A stretch of DNA of 64,000 bases from Paragorgia papillata. Taxonomy: Eukaryota; Cnidaria; Anthozoa; Scleralcyonacea; Coralliidae. The notes under the pieces are model-generated. The model was not told the origin of the DNA and did not search any database. It saw only the letters and a program-made list of their open reading frames with translations. The translations under genes were made by a program, and so were the position numbers. Location: positions 1,403,501 through 1,467,500 of the forward strand of contig JAWNZC010000285.1 in assembly GCA_035771165.1 (NCBI GenBank). Reading direction: 5' to 3'. This document shows positions 3,591 through 64,000 of the stretch, one piece after another (within the stretch, counting starts at the first letter, position 1; every line of letters starts with the position of its first letter).

Positions 3591-3616
3591 ATGAAGTTTG
3601 ACCACTTAAGACAGCT

Positions 3617-45466: not shown

Positions 45467-45526
45467 ACTGCATTTTGTGCTACAACAAAAGTGGACCTAG
45501 CTGTGCTAGCAGTGCTACACATTTTT

Positions 45527-45872: not shown

Positions 45873-46322
45873 TGGTTCGCGGAATCAATATACACAGGAT
45901 TGGAATATTGCTAATCGTATAATAATGGTTTATCTTACTTTATCACGTGTACTATTCGATCTGAAATTAAATAATACAGGATTCTTACTAATGCGCTAAT
46001 ATTTTCTAATCCAAATAACATTCATAAACTTTCACTTACTTCTGTGGCAATATCCAATGTTTCAATACAATAATACGTATACAGGTGAGCAACTTTTCTC
46101 TGGTTAGCTTTACAGGTTAGCGTTCAGTGTTTATACAAAACAGGTTAGCGTTCAACAAACAGTGCGGTTCTTCTCAGTTCTTTTAACAACAATAAAGCCT
46201 TATTTTCAGTCATGCGGTCTATAGTAATCTGATACTAATAATTATTAAATGTCAATCAAAGTTAAATCAATGTAATAAACTAAATTAAAGAATAATAGTA
46301 ATCTCGTTCGTCTATCGAAACA
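45873..46322 (-). repeat. 3' LTR, full length
   Basis: 450 bp, bounded TG...CA in both orientations. It contains TA-rich stretches and the repeated word CAGGTTAGCGTTCA near 46111 and 46142. It would carry promoter and polyadenylation signals; I cannot mark exact sites. Confidence 0.85.
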
Positions 46323-46348
46323 TCCTCCCCGCCATGAGGACACAGTCC

Positions 46349-49300
46349 TTATACATCTGTCTTGTATCCTTCTGCTGGGTAGATGACAGCGATCTTCGTG
46401 ATCGGTCTTTTATATTCTCCAACAGACGTTTTTATTTTCACGTTTCTGACTCTTCCGTCGGGCCCGGGATATACTTCAGTGACCCTGCCTAGGGTCCACT
46501 TTCCTCGGATTGCGTTGTTATCTGCGTACGTCACCACGTCGTTTACCTGGACGTTCCGTTGATCTACTTGCCATTTTTTTCGCGGTACAAGGTACGGGAA
46601 TACATCTCGACTCCACCGTTTCCAAAAGGAGTCGACCAACTTTTGGACGAATTCCACTCTGTGCTGCGGGTTTCTTGTCTGCTTGAATGGCCCTTGTGGG
46701 ACTTCGGACGTTGCTCGCCCTAGAAGCATGTCGTTCGGGCATAGATAGGACCCGTCGTCTGGATCGTTCGGCACTCTGCCGATGGGGCGTTGGTTGACTA
46801 AGTTTCCAGCTTCTAGTAGATACGTATACAGCTCGAACGGTGTCAGTACTTGGTCACCTACGGCTTTCTTTAATGCGTTCTTGCAGCTTTTGACTAGTGC
46901 CTCTGCACATCCATTGTGATGCGGCGCCGCAGGAGTTGTAAATTTCCATTCCATGCCCTTCTCTGCACAGAACTCACGTAGCTCTTCCTTATCCCAACCG
47001 GTCACCATTTCGCGCAGCTCTCTTTCTGCCCCGACAAACTGAGTCCCGTTGTCGCTCATCATTACAGCGGGTTGACCTCGGATCGAGAAGAATCTACGGA
47101 GCACTTGCAAGAATTCCATAGTAGAACAGTCCACAGCTAATTCTAGATGAACTGCTCTTGTGTTCAAGCATGTGAATAGTACTCCATAGTGCTTTGTCGT
47201 CTTGTTGCGCCCTACTTTGACGGTATAGGGTCCGAAGTAGTCGCATGCTGTATAATGAAATGGTGGCGTGTACGGTGCTAGACGAAGCTGAGGTAGATCC
47301 GCCATACGTTGCGACTCGACTTTGTGTGTCATTTCTCGACAGAATGCACACCGGAACTTGACAGACTTGGCGAGGTCGTTGGCCTTCAGAATCCAGTATT
47401 TCCTCTTTGTCTTGGCTGCCGTCGTCGCTACTCCATTGTGGCCAAACTGGTGCATGTGACGTGTTACTAACAGCGAGATCCAGTGCTCACGAGGGAGTAA
47501 TGCGGGGTGCTTGGTCTCGTAGGACACCACAGCTTCGGATACTCGTCCTCCAACTCTCAATACTCCATTTTCATCTATGAACGGACTGAGCGCTGTGAAT
47601 TCACCTTTGGCTAGGCGGCCATGGAGACTTTTCTGGACTTCTTTAATCCAAAAGATCTCGGCTTCTTGCAGTTCACGTGGCGAGGGCGGACCTTGTGTGG
47701 CAGTACTTTGTTCATCTTCTCTGCTTTCTACTTGTCGTTTTGCACGTGCCTTTCGACTCAATCTTCTTATGCGGGCGGTAACCCTAATCTGTTTCCTCCA
47801 AGTAGAAAACTTCTTAAGGTTAATTGCTTCTTCAGCCTTCGACATCGTCACCTGGCAAACAGTCTTGACTTTACGACGCTCTTTGTTGTCATGCTGTAAA
47901 TCTTCTACGGGCGATACTGGTTCCTGTGGCCAGTCTTCCTCTGGTAACTTAAGGAATTCTGGACCGTGCTTCCACCTGTCATTCAGCTCTTGAACTGTGA
48001 TACCACGAGAGACATCGTCTGCCACGTTTTGTTCTCCTGCGATATGTTTCCATTGGGACGGGTTAGAGTTGTTTTGAATCTCACCAACCCTAGCTGATAC
48101 GAAGGGCTTGTATCCTCTGGCTTGACTGCAGATCCATGCTAACACAATCCTGCTATCTGTGAAATAAATGATCTTCTCAAATTGAATCCGTGATTCTTCG
48201 CGAATGTTTTTTCCTATCCGTGTAGCCAAAACCGCGATTTGTAGCTCGAGTCGTGGAATTGTCAGCTCTTTCAGCGGTGCGACCCTTGATTTCGCAGCTA
48301 CAAATCTAGCTTCATATTTCCCGTTACTGCTGGTTAGCCATCTCACGTAAGCGCACGCTCCAAAGGCCTCCCGTGAAGCATCTGAGAAAATACACAGTAT
48401 TGGCAATCCCACTGCATCTGCTGGGGTTAGGCACCGAGGGAATGTCACTCCGTTTAACTCTTCTAGTCCTTGGAACAGTTCGATCCATTTTCGGTGAATT
48501 TCTGTTGGCAGTGCCTGGTCCCAGTCGTACCCCATCTGCCATAACTGTTGCATTCCTATTTTCGCACGGATAAGAAAGGCGGCGGCAAATCCGATAGGGT
48601 CATATATACGGGCAATTCGACTTAATACCATTCTCTTCGTTAGGTGTGGCTTCGTTTGGCTGGGACCTTCGGTACTTGTGATCTTGAGTAGATCAGCTTT
48701 GACTTTGAATGTAAACTTGTCGGTGTCGTTTTGCCATACTATTCCAAGTACCTTTTCTTCCACATCTCCTTGGAATATCTTCATCTCTTCTGTTTTCTCG
48801 TGTGGACTTTGTTTCTTCAGGACTTTATTTGAGGTCCAGCCTTTGACCTTGAAACCTCCTTTCTCTAAAACGTCGTCGAGATCATCCGTTTGCTTGCGTG
48901 CGTCCACTGTATCAACTGAGTCGCAAATATCGTCCATGTAGACGTTCTCCGTAAGTGCTTTAGCTGCTTGTGGGTGGGAAGTTTGACTTTCTTTTGCTGT
49001 TTGCTGCAGGGCTATCTGGGCCATTGCTGGGGCTGGTTTGTCTACGAAAGTAAGAACTGTTTTCACGTAGACATCTGGCTCTCGGCTTGTGTCAAAATTC
49101 CTCCAAACGAATCGATGGACGTGCTGATCTTGCTTTGGTATGAGGACACGATGGTACATTTTGGAGATGTCTCCGCTGATGGCCACTTCTTTCTCTCTAA
49201 AGCGTAGAACGACCCCGAACAGGTTATTTAGCAGATCTGGCCCTTTTCTCCAGTAGTCGTTCAGTCTGTGTCCTTGATAAACAGACGATGAGTTGAACAC

Positions 49301-51565: not shown

Positions 51566-51767
51566 GCAATCTCTTACCTCGTCTGAGGCCGTTCATGTTC
51601 AACTAGATGAACCAATGCCTTGCCAAGTCGTGTGAGTGCGGCCTTTGCTGCGCGGCGGCTGTTCTTTATCGCTTTCAATTGCCCGGAACTTTCTCCCCCA
51701 TCGTCAGTCATGCTTTATCACCATTTATGATTCCACGAGGTCCGCGGGTAAGCAAGAAATCGAATGA

Positions 51768-51817
51768 TGGTTCGCGGAATCAATATACACAGGATTGGAA
51801 TATTGCTAATCGAAACA
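51768..51817 (-). repeat. 5' LTR remnant, 50 bp
   Basis: It shares TGGTTCGCGGAATCAATATA and the following 24 bp with the 3' LTR, then skips about 400 bp and ends in ATCGAAACA. The breakpoint shares ATCG with both sides, which points to microhomology-mediated deletion after insertion. Confidence 0.9.
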
Positions 51818-51822
51818 CTGGT

Positions 51823-52175
51823 TAATTGACAATGCAATGGGAATTCCAATAGGATTCAATTGGAATTGCAATAGGATTAATTGGAATTGCAATAGGATTC
51901 AATTGGAATTCCAATACGATTCGATTGGAATTCCAATAGGATCCAATTGGAATTCCATTACGATTCCATGGGAATTCCAATAGGATTCAATTGGAATTCC
52001 AATAGGATCCAATTGGAATCCAATACGATTCAATGGGAATTCCAATAGGATTCAATTGGAATTCCAATAGGATCCAATTGGATTCTACTGGAAATTGGCC
52101 CAATTTCCAATTGGAATTCCAATTGGATCCTATTGGAATTCCAATTGGAATTCCAATTTAATTTTTTTGTAAGAG
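51823..52175. repeat. GGAATTCCAATAGGATTCAA self-complementary array
   Basis: The words TTGGAATTCCAATAGGATTC, TTGGAATCCAATACGATTC and AATTGGATTCTA alternate for about 350 bp, right of the BEL/Pao insertion and up to the GRF gene's 3' end. This is the fifth array of this architecture in the window, and it truncates the C-terminal coding region of the GRF ORF. Confidence 0.85.
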
Positions 52176-52493
52176 TAGAGGTTTTTGACTCTCGAAGATG
52201 TCTCCCCATTGCCAAAATGAACAAGGGCTTTCTCGTTCGGAGCAAACAAAGTAAGGTCTTCCATAACTTGTCTTCATCTTATCTTTAACCATTCGTAACT
52301 TCGCCAATTTCTGATGGTTAGGACACACGGGGTGCACACAACCACTTGCTAGAAAAGAGTCTACAGCTTTCCCGAACATGTAGCAGTCTTCTTCTGGGCA
52401 CAAGAACTCACAACTAGGTTTCTGTCCACAGAACCAAAAGGTACCATTCGTTGTTGTTGAAACAGATGCAGGTTTACCATGTAGACATTCCAT
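52158..52493 (-). CDS. Protein with two GRF-type zinc fingers, 3'-truncated
   Basis: I chose ATG at 52493 (MECLHGKPASVSTTTNGTFW); the open frame extends further upstream without an ATG. The first finger reads CLHGKP...FWFCGQKPSCEFLC. The second has CVHPVCPNHQKLAKLR...YGRPYFVCS followed by CSFWQWGD. Both fit zf-GRF modules, found in single-strand-DNA or RNA-associated repair proteins and helicases. After GDIF the frame runs into the repeat array and stops, so the rest of the protein, perhaps an enzymatic domain, is missing or in an unseen exon. Confidence 0.7.
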   Translation of the reverse strand: MECLHGKPASVSTTTNGTFWFCGQKPSCEFLCPEEDCYMFGKAVDSFLASGCVHPVCPNHQKLAKLRMVKDKMKTSYGRPYFVCSERESPCSFWQWGDIFESQKPLLLQKN

Positions 52494-52582
52494 TGCAGCG
52501 ATGTTGTACTTAACCAGAGAAAGACCAAACGAATGAAATCCTGACACAACAACACTGGGCTTATATCACCAACCACATTACT

Positions 52583-52634
52583 TCCGGGCGTCACACCGGG
52601 CGTCACACAGGGCGTCACATGTGGCGTCACGCTG
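52583..52634 (-). promoter_or_regulatory. Four tandem GGCGTCACAC motifs upstream of the GRF gene
   Basis: GGGCGTCACACCGGGCGTCA, then CACAGGGCGTCACATGTGGC and GTCACGC repeat a 12-bp step; read on minus, each contains GTGACGCC. TGACG is the half-site of CRE/ATF elements. The position 90-140 bp upstream of the chosen ATG suits a promoter. It also opens a spurious VTP-repeat frame. Confidence 0.45.
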
Positions 52635-52639
52635 AATAT

Positions 52640-53365
52640 TTGATGAGGCGGCATCCCTTTGATACACTGGATGGGGGGGGGGGGAGGGGTTACCTAGTCT
52701 GGTTGCTGCGAACGACGATATTTGAATAAACTTGTTCTCAGGACCTTACGGGTTTTGCGCACATTAAATCTCAATAAGCTAACTGAAATTTATGTCGCGT
52801 TCGATTATCGAGTTATAAATCATGCACGAGAGTAGTGTTATTAATAATACTATTTTTTTTTGTGTGTTGGAGATTGGGTACTAGTGATTAACCAATCATA
52901 TTGCTTTATTTTTTTTTTCAACCAATCAGGTGCAAGTAGGAATAAATTAAAGTCGATTTTGGACGGAGGGTGCTAGAGAGTGGGTGTTGGCTGTTTATTT
53001 TTTTAATTAATTCATGGGTGTGGTTTGTGTTCGGGTGGGTTGGGGATTTTTTTTGGTGTGTGTGTGTAAAAAAATTAAAAAAAAGGAGAAAAAAATAAAT
53101 TTTTCTTTGAAGTATAGAAGTAGTGAACGTTGATAGCGTGAAAGTTGTGATTCCCTAAGAAAAAAATTAAATAAAAATAATTGCGATTGAATATATAGTT
53201 GGTTTTTTTTGTATTTTGTTTCTGTTTTTTTGAAATTTTACGTTTCTCCATATATGTCGAAAAATTGGAAAAAAATATTTTTAATTTATTATTAATTTTT
53301 TTTTTTCATTTTAAAAAATATTTTTAACTGTAGAAAAAAATTTTTTTTTTAGTCAGTTGTAAAAA
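52640..53365. other. Junction zone between host-type DNA and the AT-rich island
   Basis: A poly-G tract with one A lies at 52673-52688. After about 52840 the DNA turns into runs of A and T with GTGTGTGT and GGGTGGGTTGGGG phrases. I see no ORF, no clear inverted repeat and no target duplication, so the border of the island is not pinned. 53342-53368 carries TTAGTCAGTTGTAAAAAATGG, similar to the leader of the gene at 61793. Confidence 0.45.
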
Positions 53366-53728
53366 ATGGCTGAAGCGATATGGACGAAGTTTTTCTCAGA
53401 TCAGTCGAAGGAGAAGTTTTTATCAGTTGAAAAATTAAATTATTTTAGGGAATTTTATCCGGATAGTAATTTGATATTACGTAGTGGAGAGGAAGTTATT
53501 ATACGTGGAGGTGAAGATAATGAGGAAGTTATTAAAGATACTAGTGAAGAAGAAATAAATATGGAACTTTTGTTTGAAGTGGTTTCTGCAGTAGAGATTG
53601 AAAAATATTATGGATACCCCTTGGGAAATCTTTATACTTTGGATACTTTGAAGAAACACGATTTTCATAAGTTTTTGGGAAAAGTTGTGTTTTATAAAGA
53701 TTATATTTTAAAATTGAAGGAGAACTGA
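53366..53728 (+). CDS. Unknown acidic 120-residue protein of the island
   Basis: Starts MAEAIWTKFFSDQSKEKFLS at the first ATG after a long T run. Acidic middle (GGEDNEEVIKDTSEEEINME), then YYGYPLGNLYTLDTLKKHDF. No known domain, signal peptide or membrane segment. Its leader AGTTGTAAAAAATGG resembles AGTTGTAAAATG at 61784-61795, which hints at a shared leader or initiator. The codons are strongly A/T-ending like the rest of the island. Confidence 0.7.
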   Translation: MAEAIWTKFFSDQSKEKFLSVEKLNYFREFYPDSNLILRSGEEVIIRGGEDNEEVIKDTSEEEINMELLFEVVSAVEIEKYYGYPLGNLYTLDTLKKHDFHKFLGKVVFYKDYILKLKEN

Positions 53729-53799
53729 GAGATTGAGAAAAGGTAAAAATTTATTTTCCATGGTAGATTACCATGGTTTTTTGTTACAAGTATTATTTT

Positions 53800-53999
53800 T
53801 TAAAGATTATATCTTTTCCACCAGCGTTGTTGTCTTTCTATACAATCACAACGTTTAAAGACTTTAACCTTAACTTTTTTACAATAATTTTCTGTACAAA
53901 ATTTACAAAAAAATGCATTACTTCGCATTGTCGACAAGTAAAGAAACAAAATATATTTTCACAATCCATATTGCTTAAACAATTAGTACAATTTTCCAT
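53800..53999 (-). CDS. Small Cys-rich protein, interrupted at a T7 run
   Basis: ATG at 53999 opens MENCTNCLSNMDCENIFCFF and RQCEVMH. At the seven-base homopolymer near 53910-53916 the Cys spacing continues in another frame (FFCKFCTENYCKK, FKRCDCIERQQRWWKRYNL, stop 53800). The paired CxxC and CxC motifs across the shift look like one zinc-binding protein of about 66 residues with a one-base homopolymer discrepancy. Convergent with the gene to its left. Confidence 0.5.
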
Positions 54000-54026
54000 C
54001 TAAAAGAAAAAAAAATAAAGAGAGAA

Positions 54027-54034
54027 TATAAAAG
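54027..54034 (+). promoter_or_regulatory. TATA box
   Basis: TATAAAAG, 22 bp before the ATG at 54056. The same octamer stands upstream of the gene at 55081. Confidence 0.6.
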
Positions 54035-54055
54035 AGTTTTAATTATACTTTGAAA

Positions 54056-54295
54056 ATGGAGCCATCCGAGCTGGAGATGGCAATGGAGAATAAGAGAAGG
54101 ATTTGCGCGTCGTTTGCTGAATATTTTAATAATAATCCTGAAGCGATGCGTTATTTATTTGAAGAGTGTGAAGAAAAAACAAAAAGAGAACAAGAAGAAA
54201 GGGTAATAATTTTTTTTACATACCTTACGCTTCTTCTATTTGCTCATGGATCGTATTTTCTAGTTCTCTTTTCCTTTTATTTCTTCTTTTGTTGA
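54056..54295 (+). CDS. Unknown small protein, overlaps its convergent neighbour
   Basis: MEPSELEMAMENKRRICASF opens a charged helical protein (YFNNNPEAMRYLFEECEEKT). From codon about 50 the frame becomes very hydrophobic (LLLFAHGSYFLVLFSFYFFF) where it overlaps the 3' 70 bp of the minus-strand gene. Either this is a C-terminal membrane anchor, or the real product ends or is spliced at the AAAGGGTAATAA near 54200. No family is recognised. Confidence 0.5.
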   Translation: MEPSELEMAMENKRRICASFAEYFNNNPEAMRYLFEECEEKTKREQEERVIIFFTYLTLLLFAHGSYFLVLFSFYFFFC

Positions 54296-54812
54296 TAATC
54301 CTTTCATAGTTATGTTTGTTTTCATGTTTACATGAAATTGATAATATATTCTTTAGAATCGCATCACATTTCGATATGACAATCATTTCTAATGAAAGTT
54401 CAATTAAAAAAGCACATTCAGTTTGTATTGATAGTTGGTAGTCCAGTGTTACATTTTCCTTTTGTGAGGCTATCGCGATCCATTGAAGACAGAGTCTTGT
54501 TGGTAGCGTAATAAAGTGTTCAACATAGGGAAATATTGTAAATAGTATAGTTCTATCCGCTTGGTGTACTGCTGCGTAATCAGCTGAAGCTGGTTTCTCT
54601 GTAGCAAACCATTCTTCTAGTTCGTTCTTGTTCGGAAAATATGCAACATATTTGAACAGTGGGTATGCGCTGTTGGTTTCATTTGTCAATCTGGCTAGAT
54701 GATCTTGATATGCGTCACGCCATATGAATAGTTTTCCTGATGGAAGTCCTTTAAATTCATCGCTACAAATTAAACATTTCTCTTTGTTAAATGATGCTTC
54801 GATAGTCTCCAT
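54225..54812 (-). CDS. Unknown 195-residue protein with CxxC start
   Basis: METIEASFNKEKCLICSDEF starts at 54812. Residues 13-16 form a CLIC pair. The middle has IFPYVEHFITLPTRLCLQWI and the end is basic (KRRNKRKRELENTI). No known domain. The basic KRKRE word recurs at the start of the 441-residue protein of this island. It could be a nuclear regulatory protein, but that is only a guess. Confidence 0.65.
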   Translation of the reverse strand: METIEASFNKEKCLICSDEFKGLPSGKLFIWRDAYQDHLARLTNETNSAYPLFKYVAYFPNKNELEEWFATEKPASADYAAVHQADRTILFTIFPYVEHFITLPTRLCLQWIAIASQKENVTLDYQLSIQTECAFLIELSLEMIVISKCDAILKNILSISCKHENKHNYERIINKRRNKRKRELENTIHEQIEEA

Positions 54813-55044
54813 TTTGTAAGTGAGTGGATAATAAAAAAACTGCGTAGCTTCTCTTAATTGTTATTTTTTTATGCTTTTTTTAGCTTTTATTACCTTTTAT
54901 GACCTTATTTGGAATTGATTATGTAATTAACGTTAGCTTTTTTAAGCCGATTTTTAATTTATTAACGTTTATTTTTTATTATCGTTTAGCTTTTTTAAGA
55001 CTATTTTATTTATTTATTAGTGCTTTTTTGGAATGAAGTAAGAA

Positions 55045-55052
55045 TATAAAAG
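55045..55052 (+). promoter_or_regulatory. TATA box
   Basis: TATAAAAG, 29 bp before ATG 55081, with the T-rich leader TTTGTTTTTTGTTTTGCTTC between. Confidence 0.65.
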
Positions 55053-55080
55053 CGCAATTTGTTTTTTGTTTTGCTTCATT

Positions 55081-55383
55081 ATGTTTCTTGTCTTGCTTGC
55101 GTGTTTCTTTGAAATACTTCAAGAGAATATGTGGAAATCTATATATGCTGCAAGTATAATTCTTTGTTTGTTTTTATGTTATGCTCAGTCACATCGTGCT
55201 GATGAACTGATTAAGAAGTTTGAAGATAAAGTAAAGCAGGAAGGAGGAGGAGGAGGAGGATGTTGCTATTGCGATTATGATAAAAAAAACTGTGGTTCAT
55301 TTAAAGGATGGATCAACCGTGACGTTGGACAAGGATGGATCAAGCGTGAGGGTGAACAAGGAAAAGAACCCATGAACGGATGA
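55081..55383 (+). CDS. Small secreted or membrane protein with Gly-Cys patch
   Basis: ATG 55081 gives MFLVLLACFFEILQENMWKS; the second Met (codon 17) starts a textbook signal peptide (MWKSIYAASIILCLFLCYAQ). The mature part is basic-acidic (HRADELIKKFEDKVKQE), then six Gly, CCYCDYDKKNC and the near-repeat GWINRDVGQGWIKREGEQG. The Cys cluster could bind metal or form disulfides. Its own TATA box and a 3' duplicated 21-bp word (GAGTTTAACAAACAATTGA, 55383 on) flank it. Confidence 0.7.
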   Translation: MFLVLLACFFEILQENMWKSIYAASIILCLFLCYAQSHRADELIKKFEDKVKQEGGGGGGCCYCDYDKKNCGSFKGWINRDVGQGWIKREGEQGKEPMNG

Positions 55384-55663
55384 GTTTAACAAACAATTGA
55401 AATGAGTTTAACAAACAATTGATTAAAAAAAAATAACAACAACAATGAACAAATGATTTAGTTATAGAAATGACATTTAATTAGGATAGTAAAAAACATT
55501 TTATGATACCGAGTGTTTTTGAAGTTCTTTTAAGAGATAAAAATATAAGTGATGTAAAAAAAAATATATATAAAACAAATAAAACTATAAACAATTCATT
55601 TGTTGAAATCATGTTCGTTTCTTGATCACCTTTAAAATCTTTCTAATGTTCTTAAATTAAACG
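55384..55663. other. AT-rich spacer
   Basis: It opens with two copies of ATGAGTTTAACAAACAATTGA. The rest is A/T runs with no ORF. It probably holds the 3' ends of the two convergent genes around it. Confidence 0.5.
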
Positions 55664-55915
55664 TTATTGTTCTTGATTTTCTTCGTCGTTTTTTCTTGGT
55701 TTTTCCACCTCCCAAATTTCAGATAGAAGAAAGTAAATCTCCTTGAAGTTTTGAGCGTTCCTGCTCATCCACACCTTTTTAATTGTGTTGTTTTTCGTTA
55801 TTTTCATAACCCACCAGTTATCCGTTGGGGTCTTTACCACCCAGTCTTCTTTTACTGTTGTATTGTTCATCCACAGCTCGTTGTAGTAAACGATATGATT
55901 GATGTAGTCTCCCAT
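55664..55915 (-). CDS. Unknown 83-residue Trp-rich protein
   Basis: MGDYINHIVYYNELWMNNTT continues with five more Trp residues (DWVVKTPTDNWWVMKI, VWMSRNAQNF, EIWEVEKP) and ends acidic. Alternating aromatic strands suggest a small beta-sheet fold. No family is recognised. ATG at 55915. Confidence 0.6.
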   Translation of the reverse strand: MGDYINHIVYYNELWMNNTTVKEDWVVKTPTDNWWVMKITKNNTIKKVWMSRNAQNFKEIYFLLSEIWEVEKPRKNDEENQEQ

Positions 55916-55984
55916 TTTATTGTATGACCAGACGATGTTTTACTCAAAAGCGTTTTAAGTAATCTTTCTAACCCTCTATCCAAG

Positions 55985-56500
55985 TATTTGATTTTTTGAT
56001 CATTGGAATGTTTGTTTACGTTGTTCTTAAGTATCTACTTCAAAGTATTATATTGTTCCAAGTCAAAAGGTTAATGATAGTATGGTTGGAATGTTGTTTA
56101 TTCAAAAATGGTATCAAAAAATAGAACACTTAGAAATCAAATACTTAAAATTATATCATTTTTTTGAGTAAACAACATTCCAACCATAACCACTCATTAA
56201 CCTTTTGACTTGGTAAAAATATAATATTTAGAAATAGATACTTAGAACGGATAAACAACATTCCAATGATCAAAAATAGAACACTTAGAAATTAAATACA
56301 TCTGTTGCTGACCATCTGTGGGGCATGTTTTTCTTCACTTTTTTATTTTTTTGAGTAAACAACATTCCAACCATACCAGATCATTAAGCTTTTGACTCGG
56401 TAAAAATATAATACTTAGAAATAGATACTTAGAACGGATAAACAACATTCCAATGATCAAAAATAGAATACTTATAGAAATTAAATACTTAGAAATACAG
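55985..56500. repeat. Inverted and direct repeat cluster
   Basis: A block including CCAAGTCAAAAGGTTAATGA and TATGGTTGGAATGTTGTTTA (56057-56103) is repeated inverted at about 56167-56215 and again near 56350-56400. The unit AGAAATAGATACTTAGAACG followed by GATAAACAACATTCCAATGA occurs twice directly (about 56229 and 56415). A large hairpin with direct repeats in a gene-free spot is typical of origins or enhancers in large DNA viruses; function here is inference. Confidence 0.75.
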
Positions 56501-56508
56501 TATTTTTT

Positions 56509-56970
56509 CTAAGTAGTAAGAGTATTGATTGAAATAGAAAATGGTTTTAGTTTTTTAAACAATACGTTCAAACGTTCGTAGACAATTGTTTCGTCAATGT
56601 CGGGTATATCTTCGGGTTTATAAAATAGTTGTTGGATTTTTGTTTGTACTATCAACGATCCCTTTTCCACAATAAAAGTTGGTTTATTCTTGACATCTGC
56701 TATATTCTTTAGACATTGATCACATATCGGTACTAAACAAACCTTATCTTCATCACAGTCTTCGAAACTGAAACAGCAAAGTTCAGCATTATGCGTACAT
56801 CTTCGTAAACTGCAAACAGTTGTAAATGGTGAATCTGTTCCGTAACTCCATAATTTTTTTGTAGTATCTTGTATGTAGTTAAGAAGCCAGTAACAACTAT
56901 TTCTTGCTTCGGTTAGTTCTTTCTTGTTGAGGAATTTCTCTGCTTCTTTTAAAATTTTATCCATTTTCAT
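56509..56970 (-). CDS. Unknown 153-residue protein with zinc-finger-like Cys cluster
   Basis: MKMDKILKEAEKFLNKKELT forms an N-terminal helix pair. Residues about 53-85 carry CSLRRCTHNAELCCFSFEDC and CLVPICDQC. The spacing C-x4-C-x2-N ... C-x2-C is mirrored in the 441-residue minus-strand protein (CRFKNCRQN ... YCSDHN), so they may share a metal-binding fold. No known domain otherwise. The 47-bp repeat array is immediately upstream and may regulate it. Confidence 0.65.
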   Translation of the reverse strand: MKMDKILKEAEKFLNKKELTEARNSCYWLLNYIQDTTKKLWSYGTDSPFTTVCSLRRCTHNAELCCFSFEDCDEDKVCLVPICDQCLKNIADVKNKPTFIVEKGSLIVQTKIQQLFYKPEDIPDIDETIVYERLNVLFKKLKPFSISINTLTT

Positions 56971-56980
56971 TTGATTTTTA

Positions 56981-57227
56981 TCACCTAGTAATTAAGAAAG
57001 ATCTAGGGGACGTTTGTTTGTTATTTTATCACCTAGTAATTAAGAAAGATCTAGGAGCGTTTGTTTGTTGTTTCATCACCTAGTAATTAAGAAAGATCTA
57101 GGAGCGTTTGTTTGTTGTTTTATCACCTAGTAATTAAGAAAGATCTAGGGACATTTGTTTGTTATTTTATCACCTAGTAATTAAGAAAGATCTAGAAGCG
57201 TTTGTTTGTTATTTTATTACCTAGTAA
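56981..57227. repeat. 47-48 bp tandem repeat, five copies
   Basis: The unit starts TCACCTAGTAATTAAGAAAG and continues ATCTAGGAGCGTTTGTTTGT; starts at 56981, 57029, 57076, 57123 and 57170, with a decaying sixth at 57217. Each contains CCTAGTAATTAAG and the palindrome AGATCT. It lies between the divergent genes at 56970 (minus) and 57343 (plus), where an enhancer or replication origin would sit. Confidence 0.9.
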
Positions 57228-57342
57228 CGATAATAACATAGAAAGAAGTGCTTTATTACATGACCATATATGGAATATTGTTGTTTAATAAAAGCATAAA
57301 GAAAAGGATTTTTATTTAGTTTTATCGTGAACGTCGTAAGGA

Positions 57343-58149
57343 ATGGAAGAAAAAATGGAACCGAAAAATACTCATGATGAGTTGCTCTTACTTTTGGCGA
57401 ATTATGATTCAAAAGATCTAGAGGAAGGTAAAAAAAAGAGTTTTTAAAAAAAAAAATCGTAAATAGTGAGTGATTGTGTGCTCGATGAAGAGCGGGCGCA
57501 AATGATGTTTATTATTTTTATTCGATTAGCGAGTTTCAACCATGAGCGTTGCGCGATTAGCGAGTTTCAACCATGAGCGTTGTGCGATTATAAAGTTCAT
57601 TATTTTTTTTTTTTAGTAGTTGAAAGGAAAAGAATAGCAGAGAAAGAATTTCAATTGTATGAAGAACAACAACGACCGTTGCAAGAAGAAGACGACGAAG
57701 AAAGAAAAAAGGCTCAACGGGAAAAAGAGGAGCAACAAGAGCAATACGAATACGACTGACTTTGTGAGCAGAATCAACAAGAACAAGTAAATGTATCAAT
57801 TAATACGCTTTTAAAAGATTTAGAGATGAGTTCGTCAGGATCTTCAATTGAAGAAAATTTAATAGAATATTTTCCTCACCCCATACATCCACCACAGTCA
57901 TCATCAACTCCTTCAACTGAGTATACTACTTATATGCCGCATAAAACAATTAAGCCGGTAGGAACCGATGCTATTTTTACGGAATTTCAAATTGATACGG
58001 GAAAAAGAGGAGGAAAAAACATTAATTTATTAAAATCTTTATATAATGCGAGCGGTGAAGAAGATGGAGACGATGAAGAAGAAGAGGAAGAGGTTGAAGG
58101 AAAAGTGAAGGAGGAAAGAAAGAAAGAAAATATTATATTAGAAAATTAG
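57343..58149 (+). CDS. Acidic coiled-coil protein with one intron and an in-frame TGA
   Basis: Exon 1 (57343-57427) starts MEEKMEPKNTHDELLLLLAN. A donor GGTAAAAA and the acceptor TTTTTTTTTTTAG at 57616 bound a 189-bp intron. Exon 2 joins in frame with VERKRIAEKEFQLYEEQQRP, a Glu/Gln/Lys-rich coil. A TGA at 57757-57759 interrupts, after which the same frame continues to 58149 with MSSSGSSIEENLIEYFPHPI and a Glu/Asp-rich end. The intron contains two copies of GCGATTAGCGAGTTTCAACC. The exon structure is inferred from frame and splice signals only. The protein could be an acidic regulator. Confidence 0.5.
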
Positions 58150-58379
58150 TGCTTAAAAAAACCCAAATAATCACACATGAATTTTCTATTTACACAAAAA
58201 CGAACAGTAATATTATTGTAGCAGCCGAGAATAAATTTAAAGAATTGAAACGTATTTTTATAATTAAAAAAAAAATAATAGATAAACAGAGTAGTATAAA
58301 AGAAGCTTTAGATGATTTGGAGTTAATGGAGAGTAGATATAGAAATGATTTGAAAAAAGTAGATAAAAAAAAGAAATGA
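58149..58379 (+). CDS. Short Lys-rich coiled-coil ORF
   Basis: No ATG at its start: the frame opens right after the previous stop with LKKTQIITHEFSIYTKTNSN and continues KFKELKRIFIIKKKIIDKQS and ALDDLELMESRYRNDLKK. Its TGA overlaps the ATGATG of the next ORF. It may be the shifted continuation of the acidic protein upstream or the N-terminal part of the Fic gene. Not independently supported. Confidence 0.35.
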   Translation: MLKKTQIITHEFSIYTKTNSNIIVAAENKFKELKRIFIIKKKIIDKQSSIKEALDDLELMESRYRNDLKKVDKKKK

Positions 58380-59383
58380 TGGATGTTATTATTACCCAAC
58401 TTAAAGACGAAGGAATTGTATATAAAAATGGTTTTTTAGAAGAAGAAATTTCGAAGATGTTATTGATTGAAAAACAAGTGTTAGAGAGGAATTTTACGCC
58501 TGAGGATTTAGAAGAACTTAAGACGTTCGAGGGTTTCCAACAAATTTATACTTCACTGGCACCATATAACGAGGGGAGAATTATATCCTTTTATTCGTTA
58601 ATTTTATTTTGCTCTGGAAAGTTAACAGAAGAACAAATAAAGTTTCTTGTGAAATTGACAGTCGACGATTTAAAGCGTACTGAATATTTGGAGCGTGAAA
58701 TTAAAAGAAGAAGAAATAGAGAAAATATTAAAAAATATTATTTATTTTTAGCGCTTTTGTCGTCCTTTTTAATAATAACACAATTATCATTTTTTGGAAA
58801 AAAAATGAAAAAAGATGAATTATCGTTTCATTTGAAAGTTAAAATATTTACTCATGATGTAGTTAGAATGGAAGAGGAGGAGGAGTGTAATGGCTTTTGG
58901 TATTCTTGTGCAAAATTGAGTAACGCTATCAATAATTTTTATTCTCAAAAAAAAAATTAAAAAAAATTGAAAATTAGTGAAATATGTATTTTTTTACATA
59001 AATATTGTATGAAAAATGGTGGTAAATATTCGAATTTTATGAGAATTGTAGGAAAACATTATGCTCCTCTACCTGAATATATTGAAGAATATATGAAATT
59101 ATTAAATGAATTTTATATTAATAATTCTTCAACCAAATTAATTATAACTCGTGTATATTTTGCATTGGAGTATATTCATCCGTTTTCAGACGGTAATGGA
59201 CGTATAGGAAAAAATTTATTCGCTATATTAAATAATGATTTATTTTGTAAAATAAAAACATTTGAACAACACAAGAATTTATGTACAGAATTAGAATTAT
59301 TACAAAACAATATATTTGTTTTTGAAGATAGAGAAATTTATATAGCTTCATTCAATAAGTTGAATGATATGTTACAAATTTAA
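58376..59383 (+). CDS. Membrane-anchored Fic protein (AMP-transferase family), in-frame TAA
   Basis: The N-terminal part, 58376-58960, has a helical start (MMDVIITQLKDEGIVYKNGF) and a hydrophobic segment near residues 123-143 (YYLFLALLSSFLIITQLSFF). A TAA within A-runs (58958-58960) interrupts, and the same frame resumes to 59383. The second part carries the Fic motif HPFSDGNGRIGKN with the catalytic His, the anion-binding GN and the Arg, preceded by the usual helix (KLIITRVYFALEYI). Fic enzymes transfer AMP or other phosphate-containing groups to target hydroxyls. Membrane anchor plus Fic resembles the layout of animal FICD, but without visible TPRs. No inhibitory (S/T)xxxE(G/N) motif was seen. 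The stop is likely a homopolymer indel or error. Confidence 0.75.
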
Positions 59384-59387
59384 TTAA
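59384..59387. terminator. Shared 3' end of convergent genes
   Basis: The Fic stop and the stop of the 441-residue gene are separated by 4 bp within TTAATTAATTAATTAAAATA, a palindromic AT word that can supply polyadenylation-like signals on both strands. Confidence 0.35.
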
Positions 59388-60713
59388 TTAATTAAAATAA
59401 TTGCCTTTGTGTAACATTGTTTTTACTCGTTGAAGACTTGCATCCGTTAATTTTTGAATGGTTGTATTAACGCAATTGAAAACTTCATTGAATACACCCT
59501 TTTTGATTTTAATAAAACTCTCAATATTAAGAGTTGTAAATTCTATGATGTCATTATCATCACTTTCATTATGATCAGAACAATAATGAGTAGTTCGAGG
59601 TTCTCGAGTGTAAATTATTTTTGATTTTTTTTCCTCTTCTATTGCACTGTCAGATATATTATTAAATTCGAATAATTCATAACTATTATTAAATTTTACA
59701 CCGTTTTGGCGACAATTTTTAAATCTACAACATATAGGAGCGTGTCCTCGAAAAACATTTACATGTTGTATCATATTTTGACAATAGTAAGTATAATTTT
59801 GATTTCGTCGTAATATTCCACTAGGGTTGTGTGCATCGCAGTAACATAAAAAACATAATGTAATATTGTACATTTCTTCAATATTACATTTTTTTTCCAA
59901 ACATGTAACGGTTTGATAAAGAAGATTTGGTGCAATAGAAAATAGAAAAAAACAAACTTTCAATTTATCTTCGGATTCAATAAAATCTGATAATAATGAA
60001 AATATGTTGAATGTTTCTTCTTCAAAACAATTGCCTTTGTATAAACACGCTGTAAAGGGTGTATTCATTAATGGAGGTTTGGATAGTATTTTACACGCTA
60101 TAATATTATACCAATTTCGTGGAATATTTTTGTTGTCAAAATATTCAAAATCACGTGTAAGCATTTGAAAATAATACTCGTTAATAAGTGGATTTTTTGG
60201 AAAAAAAGAATAAAGGATTCTATTATCACGATATAGTATTAATTCATTGAATTTTTTATCGAATTTTACACACCATTTATTATTATTATTATCACTAAAA
60301 AAAGTCATATCTGGTGCTAAAAAGTATTTTAACCCGTTCGATATAGTTATATAAGGAAAAAACTTCTCTTCAAATGTATACACGTTATTTGGAGTATTGT
60401 TGAATAACCAGAACGGATATGGTCCAACATTACGATCATATGATTCTGTATCCTCTTCATTTCTTTGAATTAATTTTATAAATCCACCTTGATATATATG
60501 TAAAAGTCCAAGACACCAATATATATATCCAAAGTAACGGTTAGAATATTCACGAAACGCTGGAATCATTGTGAATATCCATTTCCAAGTAATTATTGTT
60601 TCCTCTTTTTCTGTTTTCTTTATTTTCTTGTTTAGTTTTACTTCTTTATTATCATTATTTTCCCTTTTCCTTTTATTCATGATGAAGGGAAAAAATGGAC
60701 TAGAGAGATACAT
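59388..60713 (-). CDS. Unknown 441-residue protein, basic N-terminus, C-terminal Cys/His cluster
   Basis: The longest gene of the island. The open frame starts at 60713; the second Met at 60680 begins MNKRKRENNDNKEVKLNKKI, a strong nuclear localisation signal. The body is aromatic-rich (NRYFGYIYWCLGLLHIYQGG; YPFWLFNNTPNNVYTFEEKF). The C-terminal third holds CLEKKCNIEEM, CFLCYCDAHN, CCRFKNCRQN and HYCSDHNESDD, probably one or two zinc sites. No known domain. The C-x4-C-x2-N...C-x2-H pattern matches the 153-residue protein. A nuclear DNA- or chromatin-associated role is a guess. Confidence 0.75.
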   Translation of the reverse strand: MYLSSPFFPFIMNKRKRENNDNKEVKLNKKIKKTEKEETIITWKWIFTMIPAFREYSNRYFGYIYWCLGLLHIYQGGFIKLIQRNEEDTESYDRNVGPYPFWLFNNTPNNVYTFEEKFFPYITISNGLKYFLAPDMTFFSDNNNNKWCVKFDKKFNELILYRDNRILYSFFPKNPLINEYYFQMLTRDFEYFDNKNIPRNWYNIIACKILSKPPLMNTPFTACLYKGNCFEEETFNIFSLLSDFIESEDKLKVCFFLFSIAPNLLYQTVTCLEKKCNIEEMYNITLCFLCYCDAHNPSGILRRNQNYTYYCQNMIQHVNVFRGHAPICCRFKNCRQNGVKFNNSYELFEFNNISDSAIEEEKKSKIIYTREPRTTHYCSDHNESDDNDIIEFTTLNIESFIKIKKGVFNEVFNCVNTTIQKLTDASLQRVKTMLHKGNYFN

Positions 60714-60761
60714 GATTACTACATTATATTATAGTAAAAAAAGCTATACCAAATATGGTAA

Positions 60762-61196
60762 AAGAATCTCTTTTTTTTTATAGGTAATCTTAAAAAAAAG
60801 CATGAATTCAGAAAAAAGTTGTTCTTTTCTTGTTTTGGGGAGCATATTGGGGTAGATAATAAAGAAAGTACAGTCCTTTGTATAGAAATATTAAGATCAG
60901 TTTATCTCGAAGTGATTAGTGAAGAAATAAAGAAAATGTGGAAAAAGACGTGTGGATGTCGTATTACTCATAAGGAGAGGATCGATGCGTTTTATCCTAT
61001 TGTATTGAATAATCTAAAGATTAATAATGAAGAAATTTGTAGACGCTTTAATGAAGATATACTTATAAAATACAATCCTCGTATTGTTGACAATGAAAAA
61101 TATAGTGAAATACAACAGAAACTGAACTGTTCTCATCACAAAAGAATAATTTGTGAAGAGAATTACGGTTATTTTAAACAAATATTATTGAATTAA
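60762..61196 (+). CDS. Unknown Cys/His protein, start uncertain
   Basis: The frame is open from 60762 with no early ATG; supported text begins near HEFRKKLFFSCFGEHIGVDN and ends at 61196. It contains CGCRITHKERIDAFYPIV and CSHHKRIICEENYGYF. An upstream exon 60682-60757 (MKGKNGLERYMITTLYYSKK) would join in phase if GTAAAAGAATCTC...ATAG (60758-60783) were a 26-nt intron. That exon overlaps the start of the opposite gene, so the real start is open. It overlaps the convergent gene by 12 bp. Confidence 0.5.
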   Translation, partial: KNLFFFIGNLKKKHEFRKKLFFSCFGEHIGVDNKESTVLCIEILRSVYLEVISEEIKKMWKKTCGCRITHKERIDAFYPIVLNNLKINNEEICRRFNEDILIKYNPRIVDNEKYSEIQQKLNCSHHKRIICEENYGYFKQILLN

Positions 61197-61683
61197 TATG
61201 AGACAATCTTCCCAAGTAATCATGTGTTTGTTCAGTAAATGTACATTTGATTTCAATGATTGACACTGTACGATTTTTTCCAATTTGTGAATCACGTGTT
61301 TTATCATAATTACACATGTTATTATTCTGTTATCTAATGATTTTTCTACAGCGATTTGAAGTCTTTGTTTTCTGAAAATATTAATTGCTTTTGTTAATAC
61401 TTTCAAAATATCGGATATTTCTTCTTTTTCTTCTTTGTCATCATCGGTCATTTGTAAAAGTAATTTCCTAAGACGTCCTTCTATAGTTGCTGTACGATGA
61501 ATGTAACGCATGATGTTGTAATACCACCATTTCAGGTAGGTTGTGTGATACTTTTCTTTGTTATAGTTTTCACCCAATGTTTCGTCAACTAAAATGGAGT
61601 CTCTTAGATTTGTTAAATATCTCCGTAGTAACGTGTAACTATTTTTTTTTTGAATCCATATGAAATCCAACTGTTGTTTCCAT
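61185..61683 (-). CDS. Unknown helical protein, A10-run shift near the start
   Basis: ATG at 61683 begins METTVGFHMDSK and meets TAG right after a ten-A run (plus strand T10, 61642-61651). The main frame, NSYTLLRRYLTNLRDSILVD to the stop at 61185, is one base away. With a run of nine the two would join. The protein is helical and charged (MTDDDKEEKEEISDILKVL, KHVIHKLEKIVQCQSLKSN). A TATA box TTATATAAG lies at 61716-61724 on this strand. No family is recognised. Confidence 0.6.
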
Positions 61684-61792
61684 TTTTTTTTTAAATTTTT
61701 TCTGTTGTGTTTTTTGCTTATATAAGTTTTTTTAGATAAAAAAAAACTCGTATATAAAGTAAAAAAAAAATTTTAATTTTTTTAGTTGTAAA
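61684..61792. promoter_or_regulatory. Divergent promoter with two TATA boxes
   Basis: The 109-bp interval between two divergent starts has CTTATATAAGC (about 61715-61725, minus) and TATATAAAG (61751-61759, plus), each 35-45 bp from its ATG. The plus leader ends in TTTTAGTTGTAAAATG. The spacing suits a eukaryotic core promoter. Confidence 0.65.
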
Positions 61793-62380
61793 ATGTATTC
61801 TGTGTATGATAGTCAATTTAATCAAATCAACGATCATGAGGATTTATTTAAAGAAAAAGGGGAAAAAATTTTGGAAAATGTAACACATATTATGGATTGT
61901 GAATGTTACACAATTAATGGAAAACGTTATTTTCGTGAAGTTTCTATTTTTAATATAGAAACAAAAAGACATGATTTAATTCATTATTTTGCTGGGGATC
62001 TTTTTGGTGAAAACCCGTATCGATATTTGGATGAAAGAAATAAAGCGTGTGTGAGAAAACAATTTTCAATTCATGGATTAAAATTATACAATTATAGAAA
62101 AAACAAATATTATCTTAGTCAATTAGAATTTTTTACATATTTTAAAGAAAAAATGGAAAAAACGAAGAATGTTTTAATAGGCTATAAAGGGGGAGATATT
62201 GAATCTAGTTTATGTAAAGATTTTTGTATTCCAGCTATAAATTTAGAACATTTTAATGTGGAAAAATACGAAAAATTACTAACGTATTTTAATAAGGATA
62301 TAAAGATATGTAGACAACATGTAAAATCAGATTGTCACTGTAGCTTCTACGAGGTACTTCTCTTTGTAGCGCGAGTTTAA
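61793..62380 (+). CDS. Possible DEDD-type 3'-5' exonuclease
   Basis: MYSVYDSQFNQINDHEDLFK leads to an N-terminal strand with HIMDCECYTINGKRYFREVS; the D-x-E pair followed by a strand fits exonuclease motif I of the DEDD fold. GLKLYNYRKNKYYLSQLEFF lies in the middle. NVLIGYKGGDIESSLCKDFC resembles the 'KG...L' motif II region, and the end CRQHVKSDCHCSFYEV has the H/C-rich close I associate with a widespread unnamed family in invertebrate elements and viruses. The final Asp is not certain. I rate the fold as plausible, activity unproven. Confidence 0.5.
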   Translation: MYSVYDSQFNQINDHEDLFKEKGEKILENVTHIMDCECYTINGKRYFREVSIFNIETKRHDLIHYFAGDLFGENPYRYLDERNKACVRKQFSIHGLKLYNYRKNKYYLSQLEFFTYFKEKMEKTKNVLIGYKGGDIESSLCKDFCIPAINLEHFNVEKYEKLLTYFNKDIKICRQHVKSDCHCSFYEVLLFVARV

Positions 62381-62426
62381 GAAAAAATTTGTAAGATTCC
62401 TGAATACGTTAAAATTTTGAATATTT

Positions 62427-63098
62427 ATGGATGAAAAAAAAATTATTTTTAAAAAATATCGTTTTTGGCATTTGGAACTAACTTCTTTTACACCCATTAT
62501 CTCAAAATTAGTAAATGGAGTTTATAATTTTAAGGAATGCCCGTGGAAAAGAGGTGTTATTAGAACAGAGATTGTTGCACAAGATGGAACCCTCACGATA
62601 TATAACCCCTATTTTGCTGATCCGCTACCCAGCTTTTCAGATGCTTCTTTAACACTAGATTTTGATGAAAACGAATGGAAGAAGAAAAAAATTATTCATA
62701 GTATTAAAATTGATATTAAAAAAAATTGTAAACCCGAGTATGAAGATGCTATAACTTTTTCTGTAATGCAAGTAAAAAAAACCATTTTTGAAGACCATTT
62801 ATTGAAAGAACCATCTAACCAAGCACCATTTGCTTTTATGGGTTCATATGTTGCAAAGCCTGGTATAAAGACTAAAGGACAACTAATAAAATTAAATGAA
62901 AAAGAAGGGATGCTTTCAAAATCGGTTGAATTTACCGATTTAAAATATAAATTACAACATGATGAACATTTTGCATTGGTTCAATCTGTTTTATATGAAA
63001 ATAAACATAAAACTATGGGGAATGTAAAATATGGTGAAGCTCTGAAACCCTATGTAGAATATGAAATTTGTGTAGTTTATTCTGATCAATACATGTGA
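62427..63098 (+). CDS. Unknown 223-residue beta-rich protein
   Basis: MDEKKIIFKKYRFWHLELTS opens a protein of alternating strands and turns (GVIRTEIVAQDGTLTIYNPY; HSIKIDIKKNCKPEYEDAI; VEYEICVVYSDQYM). No signal peptide or membrane segment. The pattern could be a jelly-roll or other beta-sandwich, so a minor structural protein is possible, but no motif proves it. It follows the exonuclease-like gene by 46 bp on the same strand. Confidence 0.65.
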   Translation: MDEKKIIFKKYRFWHLELTSFTPIISKLVNGVYNFKECPWKRGVIRTEIVAQDGTLTIYNPYFADPLPSFSDASLTLDFDENEWKKKKIIHSIKIDIKKNCKPEYEDAITFSVMQVKKTIFEDHLLKEPSNQAPFAFMGSYVAKPGIKTKGQLIKLNEKEGMLSKSVEFTDLKYKLQHDEHFALVQSVLYENKHKTMGNVKYGEALKPYVEYEICVVYSDQYM

Positions 63099-63148
63099 AA
63101 AAAGAATAAAATAATTTTTTTAAGTATTCGTTGTTTTTATTTATTTAT

Positions 63149-63409
63149 TTAATATACAAAATATTTTTCAGGATAATTTCTACGGTAATTTACAATTCCT
63201 CCAGCTTGATTTTTTTTAAATACATTATTTTTTGCATTAATTAATGTTTTTTTTCCATTTATTGTTTTGTTTTTAAGTAAATTTTTTGTTTTTACAAAAT
63301 CACGTAGAACTGCTGAATTAATTTATTTTTTTCCTCCTTTTTGACTTCGTCCTCTTTGTCTTTTTTCCCCTTTGAAAGTCCCACCTCTCTGACGTTTTTT
63401 ATTTGTCAT
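63149..63409 (-). CDS. Small basic Gly-Gly-containing protein, in-frame TAA
   Basis: ATG 63409 starts MTNKKRQRGGTFKGEKRQRG and reaches TAA (63325-63323) after 28 codons, just behind an A7 run. The same frame then runs open for 58 codons (NSAVLRDFVKTKNLLKNKTI ... NQAGGIVNYRRNYPEKYFV) to 63149. The very basic, Gly-Gly-dotted sequence resembles core or histone-like peptides of DNA viruses. The word VKTKNL also begins the SET protein upstream. This is inference; it could be two short ORFs. Confidence 0.5.
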
Positions 63410-63424
63410 TTTTTTGGGGTTTTT

Positions 63425-64000
63425 TCATCTAAAGTATCCCTTTGGCCAGTAATCAGAACCGTAAACAGCTAATATTTCCCGATGTGGTTTTATAGTTTTA
63501 GTTGCACGTAATTTAAAATGAGGAACTGCTCGTGTTTTTTCTATAAAATCAGAATTATTTCTAAATTTTGATCCTGTTGCATCACTCGCGTATCGTGCTG
63601 CGTTGTCAGTTGTTTTAAAAGCATCAACACAATCGTTAAACCCGTCACATATTGAGTATTGTGCAATGGTGTGTTTTCCGTATTTTTTATCCAATTCTCT
63701 CATATTTGTTTGATGTCCTGAATATAAACCGATATCTTCATCACGTTTGAAGGATTTTTTCCAACTATATAATCCTTCACCAGCGTTTCTAATTCCTGAT
63801 TTTTTAATACGTAAGTTATCCTCTTTTGCTAAATGTATCCAACATTTACGTGTATGTGCTGTTCTTTTACGACATCTTGCTTTTTTTATTGTTTTACTTT
63901 TACATTGACGAGATTCACGAACGCTTTGTGAAATTGTAGACATTCTTCTACCACCTCGATTATAACCTCTTTTTCCTCTTAAATTTTTTGTTTTTACCAT
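63425..64000 (-). CDS. SET-domain protein with Arg/Gly-rich N-terminus
   Basis: The ATG is the last triplet of the window. MVKTKNLRGKRGYNRGGRRM is followed by a Cys pair region (QCKSKTIKKARCRKRTAHTR, KCWIH) and a SET-like core: LRIKKSGIRNAGEGLYSWKK (the opening strand with the G.G.(F/Y) turn), DIGLYSG, and near the end RATKTIKPHREILAVYGSDY, where the closing Y and the 'I..g.Ei...Yg..Y' motif match SET. The expected NHS-type motif is replaced by SDATGSKFRNNSDF, so methyltransferase activity is uncertain. Viruses of the NCLDV type and virus-like elements encode such proteins to modify chromatin or their own basic proteins. Confidence 0.7.
   Translation of the reverse strand: MVKTKNLRGKRGYNRGGRRMSTISQSVRESRQCKSKTIKKARCRKRTAHTRKCWIHLAKEDNLRIKKSGIRNAGEGLYSWKKSFKRDEDIGLYSGHQTNMRELDKKYGKHTIAQYSICDGFNDCVDAFKTTDNAARYASDATGSKFRNNSDFIEKTRAVPHFKLRATKTIKPHREILAVYGSDYWPKGYFR

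Follow-up and report, generated by a model that had tools for sequence, protein, structure and literature searches.

Polinton/Maverick elements are described in PMC8097293 and PMC4028283 as 15-20 kb long, bounded by terminal inverted repeats (TIRs), and equipped with an rve integrase, a family B DNA polymerase (PolB), a packaging ATPase, an adenain-like protease and a capsid gene. Vertebrate Mavericks end in (AG)3//(CT)3 or (AGT)2//(ACT)2 and are flanked by 6-bp target site duplications (PMC8097293). How does the AT-rich gene island at the right end of a 64,000-bp stretch of the Paragorgia papillata genome (C285:1403501-1467500, here called the window) compare with them? With a probability of about 0.93, the island makes up the left third of an integrated and degenerate element that belongs to a multi-copy Maverick/Polinton family, an adintovirus-like virus or transposon. 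The four enzymes, the TIRs and the (AGT)2//(ACT)2 ends are common to both, a candidate stands where the capsid gene would be expected, and the element differs in its length of 30 kb. Membership of the Polinton/Maverick group is well supported, with the capsid gene counted as a candidate and with target duplications of 5 bp.

Termini, composition and hallmark genes

The DNA to the right of the window was read for another 57.5 kb in overlapping pieces (L009 onward); an extrapolated window position is the L009 coordinate plus 64000, or the L010 coordinate plus 73500. A BLASTN comparison of 48001-64000 with L009-L012 gave one strong inverted match, 52831-53067 against L010:9338-9575, with 98.7% identity over 238 bp. 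Because this match fixes both ends, the element is 30,245 bp long, its left 11.2 kb (52831-64000) lying in the window and its last 19 kb beyond it on contig C285. The left TIR (52831-53067, + strand) starts with 5'-AGTAGTG and the right TIR is its inverted counterpart at L010:9338-9575, so that the element is bounded by AGTAGTG...CACTACT, the (AGT)2//(ACT)2 end motif of Polintons and Mavericks. Immediately outside stands a 5-bp target site duplication, ACGAG, at 52826-52830 and L010:9576-9580. A first-pass annotation of the window had placed the island at 53366-64000; its left boundary is the TIR start at 52831, and it continues to an extrapolated 83075, hallmark genes included.

That annotation had also entertained a co-assembled viral contig. 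If contaminant DNA or a free viral contig had been joined to host sequence, base composition would be expected to change sharply at the left edge, as it does. The chance of this is practically negligible, because both termini and the 5-bp duplication lie inside a single 2.47-Mb contig, with a BEL/Pao-like ORF to the left and GC-richer DNA to the right, and because other copies have differing flanks and duplications of their own at five further terminus pairs. The integrated virus or virus-like transposon that had been listed beside it is what the TIRs, the duplication and the Maverick/Polinton gene set point to. The BEL/Pao-like retroelement open reading frame (ORF), assigned by eye, encodes 1658 amino acids (aa) at 46349-51325 (- strand). 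A 17-bp inverted repeat, also seen by eye, occurs on both sides of the element (52790-52830 and L010:9576-9670), and the element may therefore have inserted into another repeat.

The first-pass annotation was right that near 53 kb the sequence changes abruptly to AT-rich DNA, densely coding on both strands. GC content is 0.286 over 52831-64000 versus 0.416 over 42001-52800, and the AT-rich, gene-dense DNA persists until about 9.5 kb of L010, where GC-richer DNA begins. The part of the element within the window holds 12 ORFs of at least 100 aa, with 58% coverage, where 200 dinucleotide shuffles gave 0.14 on average and never more than 2; over the following 10 kb (L009) there are 10 such ORFs (shuffle mean 0.12, maximum 1). 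Control stretches gave 4 ORFs and 52% coverage at 42001-52800 (shuffles mean 1.11, maximum 4), 5 ORFs and 35% at 21001-32000 (mean 0.52, maximum 3), and 4 ORFs and 13% in L013 (mean 0.52, maximum 3). Coverage at 42001-52800 comes largely from the single 1658-aa ORF, and in view of the three controls the island stands out by how many separate short ORFs it has and not by coverage alone. Of two other features ascribed to it, TATA boxes near the starts are not clearly enriched and gaps of 4-50 bp do not occur throughout: TATAWA is present in the 80 nt upstream of 4 of the 14 starts examined (one more start, at the window edge, was left out) against a background of 16% of 80-mers, and a stretch of about 855 bp from 56970 to 57826 contains no ORF of at least 50 aa.

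Rightward extension in search of viral hallmarks and terminal repeats, the check proposed by the first-pass annotation, brought PolB, a packaging ATPase, an rve integrase, a capsid candidate and the TIRs. The contrary outcome, continuation with no viral hallmark, was considered too, and what was found favours a viral element. PolB is spread over three separate ORFs (L009:1614-1964, 1957-2382 and 2586-3593, all +), one of which matches DNA_pol_B_2 (PF03175, 3e-9), and a PDB comparison gave a weak match (0.0076) to 1xhx, the DNA polymerase of phi29. A genome search with DNA_pol_B (PF00136) gave 12 matches, all on other contigs and none in the C285 element. The FtsK/A32-type packaging ATPase (L009:3631-4269, +) matches Pox_A32 (PF04665, 4.6e-8). 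The rve integrase (L010:1345-1989, -; PF00665, 2.2e-10) has D61, D122 and E156 in a DDE-like context, and YFDTDS, Walker and protease motifs could be read in the element proteins. A protease piece (L009:5082-5462, -) has no Pfam match in the C285 copy; a sister copy on contig C359, collinear with the C285 element and 95.9-99.4% identical in long blocks, supplies the adenovirus-like protease (Peptidase_C5, PF00770, 2.2e-7, above the curated cut-off) and a much stronger polymerase match (DNA_pol_B_2, 8.8e-37). The C359 copy was read as three pieces without its last 1.5 kb, and its frames were taken unedited.

The 380-aa ORF at L009:7410-8552 (-) is a candidate for the double jelly-roll major capsid protein of Polintons and Mavericks, judged from sequence features, size and gene context. 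It has 11 unnamed relatives in a protein collection, at 45-54% identity, the complete ones being 434-438 aa long. A putative gene for the penton-like minor capsid protein consists of two ORFs (L010:284-769 and 738-1097, -), and the corresponding 312-aa frame of the sister copy gave sub-threshold profile matches only. The packaging ATPase has 430 relatives in the protein collection; no informative name occurs among the 120 matches listed.

Might the island be a piece of a large (nucleocytoplasmic) DNA virus that became endogenised, a reading implied by its first description as part of an undescribed large DNA virus? Fic, SET and A32-type ATPase genes are present in large viruses too, and the many short ORFs would suit such an origin. 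The genomes of nucleocytoplasmic large DNA viruses are much larger than 30 kb, whereas this is a discrete 30.2-kb unit with TIRs, a target duplication, rve and DNA_pol_B_2, and with adenain in the sister copy. A large-virus fragment is thus highly improbable, and the earlier description was wrong in kind, the gene set being that of a Maverick/Polinton. As a class, the nucleocytoplasmic large DNA viruses were rejected on the bounded 30.2-kb unit and its TIRs.

This particular copy is decayed. Its PolB is broken into three ORFs, with about 1.1 kb missing that C359 retains, its capsid candidate is about 60 C-terminal residues shorter than its relatives, its penton-like gene is split where C359 has a single frame, and its Fic gene appears to be interrupted between 58960 and 59009. 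Because of these losses and splits, the C285 copy alone is probably incapable of completing a cycle. The C359 copy is also incomplete: about 1.6 kb present in C285 are missing, and its ATPase frame is 178 aa versus 212 in C285. In C285 as in C359, what may be the C-terminal part of the integrase is encoded in a different frame (L010:1094-1345; L037:4387-4689), by programmed frameshifting or through independent decay.

A family of copies under purifying selection

The whole assembly (617.9 Mb, 473 contigs) was searched; all genome-wide counts of ends, capsid, Fic, 441-aa and SET matches are lower bounds. With the right end as DNA query there are at least 40 element ends: of 292 candidate places 40 were scored, and each gave an E value under 1e-67. 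By eye, 11 opposite-strand pairs, 30-65 kb apart and including that of C285, account for 22 of these ends. In all 20 ends that were fetched the match stops at the identical base, 19 reading CACTACT and one CACTTCT, and 16 of the 20 have their own flank. One flank is common to four ends, three on C86 (348257-360059, with 5.8-kb spacing) and one on C289:563075 (L021, L023, L024, L025), which therefore go back to one insertion whose segment was copied afterwards. Both ends were fetched for six terminus pairs, and each of the six has an exact 5-bp duplication by eye (C285 ACGAG, C344 CCATT, C359 GAGAT, C132 TATAC, C372 GGGAC, C3 TATGA), none reaching 6 bp; the chance of each is about 1 in 1024. 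The two TIRs of a single element are 95.5-99.2% identical. The capsid candidate has at least 114 matches in the genome (108 of 596 candidates scored), or about 101 loci when merged within 8 kb. They fall into identity bands from 96-100% down to 40%, with several subfamilies, and many of the matches elsewhere are stop-free frames of 430-456 aa.

Between C285 and C359, 32 hand-chosen stretches show 78 synonymous changes at 3179 sites and 105 non-synonymous changes at 13762 sites, a ratio of non-synonymous to synonymous rates (dN/dS) of 0.31 (p 1e-13 against neutrality). For the 12 window genes the ratio is 0.39 (p 6e-5) and for the other 20 stretches 0.26 (p 4e-10); by this measure the accessory ORFs, taken together, have evolved as genes. 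Several single genes have zero synonymous changes between the two copies. Compared with two loci at dS of about 0.26-0.27, the capsid candidate has dN/dS of 0.26 and 0.29. From its sequence, then, this is a bounded insertion with TIRs and a target duplication, carrying predicted replication, packaging and integration genes, present in many copies and subject to purifying selection.

What weighs against the classification, and against the role given to Fic below, can be set out together. The duplications are 5 bp long and those of vertebrate Mavericks 6 bp (PMC8097293), a difference of length and not an absence. The capsid candidate has neither a meaningful Pfam match nor a PDB sequence match, and the penton assignment is presumptive, with no profile match. 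Scans of IMG/VR with the ATPase, a capsid alignment, an ATPase alignment and the sister-copy polymerase found no relative, records near the Paragorgia genome possibly being omitted from that collection. Single-gene dN/dS between C285 and C359 reaches 1.48 (153-aa ORF), 0.95 (123-aa) and 0.84 (441-aa ORF), on few changes. There is no Fic match within 30 kb of 29 of the 101 capsid loci and no capsid match within 30 kb of 45 of the 117 Fic loci, 4 of the latter being host-gene-like; 47 of the 117 have no match to the neighbouring 441-aa protein within 4.5 kb. Lastly, Fic activity is read from a motif with lysine in place of its last arginine.

The Fic gene, its convergent neighbour and other accessory genes

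The Fic product named by the first-pass annotation is upheld. The ORF at 59009-59383 (+) matches PF02661 (3.4e-9) and PDB Fic chains (1.3e-6) and carries the motif HPFSDGNGRIGK; the 194-aa ORF just upstream (58376-58960, +) resembles, by eye and in its C-terminal part, the N-terminal part of longer Fic frames elsewhere. A test for runs of hydrophobic residues found no membrane segment upstream of the Fic domain. The Fic profile has at least 117 matches in the genome, every one above the cut-off, and 72 of the 101 capsid loci have one within 30 kb, where 1.1% would be expected by chance. As judged from these associations, a Fic gene is commonly carried by this Maverick/Polinton lineage. All 15 element Fic frames that were read, namely 13 fetched loci (the best-scoring, mostly of one subfamily), C285 and C359, contain HPFSDGNGR[IV]GK, which keeps every position of HxFx(D/E)GNGRxxR except the last arginine, here a lysine. 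Between divergent copies and subfamilies the Fic dN/dS is 0.11-0.29, mostly about 0.2, at dS from 0.3 to 2, saturating at the top; on these substitution ratios, Fic is under purifying selection across the element family. Its product is most likely an AMP transferase, to go by the motif.

Would this enzyme be self-inhibited? The inhibitory motif [ST]xxxE[GN] is absent from the 13 element Fic frames tested and from two window ORFs. The last arginine of the Fic motif contacts both the inhibitory glutamate and the nucleotide phosphates, and loss of that arginine together with the inhibitory motif possibly fits a Fic enzyme without a built-in brake. Two host-gene-like cases, both without a capsid match within 30 kb, offer a comparison. 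On C270 a FICD-like frame carries HPFTDGNGRTAR and TTAMEG, the motif as in animal FICD. On C71 there are three adjoining Fic frames of 339-350 aa, of which the one fetched (L049) reads HPFADGNGRLCR. The FICD-like frame has [ST]xxxE[GN] and L049 does not, so that absence of the motif from a single frame is weak evidence.

The FICD-like frame also bears on the host. Virophages and polinton-like viruses (PLVs) of 14-40 kb are inserted repeatedly in protist genomes (PMC12220804), and the element might be one of these in a protist genome, in place of an animal Maverick. This is very improbable: the element termini agree with the published ends of vertebrate Mavericks (PMC8097293). The same genome contains that frame with its animal-type TTAMEG, and the genome that carries the element is probably that of an animal.

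Tail-to-tail with Fic lies an ORF of 441 aa (59388-60713, -). A collection of 5.8 billion proteins yielded 2411 candidates for its product, with no relative at E 0.01 among them; the genome holds at least 97 matches (95 of 322 candidates scored), with identity down to 33%. A 365-aa paralogue with 25% identity lies in the right part of the element (L010:3282-4379, -). When merged, the matches make 80 loci, of which 71 have Fic within 4.5 kb, all 71 in the convergent arrangement, and 9 do not; counted from the Fic side, a 441-aa match lies this close to 70 of the 117 loci. The neighbour may be a Fic regulator, or it may be an unrelated fast-evolving protein. In a further reading, the pair would be a selfish module of the toxin-antidote style and not a host-modifying enzyme beside an unrelated gene. 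In bacteria there are Fic toxins that have a separate antitoxin (PMC5033356, PMC5651007), and the invariant orientation of the 71 close pairs and the lack of [ST]xxxE[GN] in 13 element frames are as such a module would have it. It loses ground where the partner is lacking, at 47 of the 117 Fic loci, and where Fic directly adjoins SET instead, at nine loci; the lack of the motif in host-like L049 also makes its absence from one frame weak evidence. We consider the module improbable. The partnerless Fic loci and the host-like Fic frame without the inhibitory motif make both the module and the extended reading given below somewhat less probable.

The SET product of the first-pass annotation survives in part: the 191-aa ORF at 63425-64000 (-) does show a Pfam SET match, and at E 0.031 this is below the cut-off, leaving a weak call. 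The gene is widespread in element copies, with at least 152 genome matches (150 of 187 candidates scored), and the 150 listed merge to 123 loci. SET lies within 40 kb of 94 of the 117 Fic loci, and Fic within 40 kb of 93 of the 123 SET loci. At nine loci (e.g. C342:87491 and C354:7640461) Fic and SET are tail-to-tail within 2.5 kb, with no capsid match within 30 kb; these are perhaps a different or shrunken type of element.

The other ORFs of the left part are short. Those of 120 aa (53366-53728, +; 98.3% in the sister copy) and 195 aa (54225-54812, -; 96.4%) and a Cys-rich one of 153 aa (56509-56970, -) have no profile match. ORFs of 100 aa (55081-55383, +) and 107 aa, with an acidic C-terminal part (57826-58149, +), stand as ORF calls, and those of 83 aa (55664-55915, -) and 86 aa (60936-61196, +) were also compared with the sister copy. 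The 108-aa ORF (61185-61511, -) has sub-threshold Pfam matches only, and the 223-aa ORF (62427-63098, +) only one such match. No Pfam, PHROGs or NCBIfam match supports the possible exonuclease that had been proposed for the 195-aa ORF at 61793-62380 (+).

Beyond the window, an 80-aa ORF lies downstream of the integrase in another frame (L010:1094-1336, -). Related small ORFs stand in tandem at an extrapolated 79.3-82.1 kb (L010:5818-8595), pairs of them being 36.7-42.7% identical; accessory genes have likely been duplicated repeatedly there. Next to the right TIR, on its inner side, a tRNA-like sequence (L010:9256-9327, +; extrapolated 82756-82827; RF00005, 33.4 bits) is present in 8 aligned copies, with a loop, counted by eye, of 9 or 8 nt versus 7 in tRNA. 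It is possibly an RNA polymerase III transcript or an old capture of a tRNA or short interspersed element. ARAGORN found no tRNA, and the match, seen with permissive filters, gave 0 in gathering mode with fast filters across 18 TIR loci including the C285 copy. Because of this, and because its flanks are equally conserved and its folding does not surpass that of shuffled sequence (z -0.97), we claim no function for it.

A possible mode of action and its relation to known systems

The gene set suggests how such an element could live. The rve integrase would insert a linear DNA with AGTAGT inverted-repeat ends, a reaction whose traces are the TIRs and the 5-bp duplication, and the B-family polymerase would copy the element, probably by protein priming. 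Capsid proteins, packaging ATPase and adenain-type protease could together form virions. The left, accessory part would supply enzymes probably used on the host, the Fic-domain enzyme and the SET-like methyltransferase. Fic would most likely transfer AMP to a host target, to the benefit of the element and possibly free of built-in self-inhibition. In its fullest form, this becomes an animal Maverick lineage that regularly carries a brake-less Fic, in many cases beside a fast-evolving orphan partner, and in which Fic and SET would alter proteins or chromatin of the host in the course of infection or enforce persistence. We put forward this extended version tentatively and think it rather unlikely as a whole. 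If true, it would amount to viral AMPylation in animals, with dozens of insertions in a single genome carrying the system. Should the Fic enzyme prove active, that one genome would offer many natural variants with which to test virus-driven AMPylation in an animal. Whatever Fic does, an anonymous gene island now has defined ends and belongs to a large resident family that numbers about 100 capsid-candidate loci in the genome.

In a body of literature without most subscription journals, Polinton, Maverick or adintovirus and Fic domain were not found together in any paper listed, and Fic does not occur in the text of the adintovirus paper PMC11071296. The adintoviruses, as presented there, share with this element the adenovirus-like replicase and protease genes and the retrovirus-like integrase. 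They are defined by a hexon recognisable by BLASTp, an OTU-like domain in PolB and an integrase chromodomain (PMC11071296); here Pfam matched no OTU-like domain in the 402-aa sister-copy frame and no chromodomain in the 80-aa and 100-aa frames after the integrase. The endogenous adintoviruses of Amoebidium are likewise multi-copy insertions of about 30 kb, complete ones as well as truncated ones, in another host, and VLTF3, a Dam methyltransferase, capsid proteins and PolB are reported for them (PMC11244446). With animal FICD and bacterial Fic proteins, to both of which there are PDB matches, the element enzyme has the active-site motif HPFxDGNGR in common; unlike them it is borne by a mobile element, ends the motif in lysine and lacks [ST]xxxE[GN] in the frames tested. 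From known Polintons and Mavericks the element is set apart by its Fic and SET accessory block and by a capsid candidate that Pfam does not match. The kind of element is already known; the new part is its widespread Fic, orphan and SET accessory genes.

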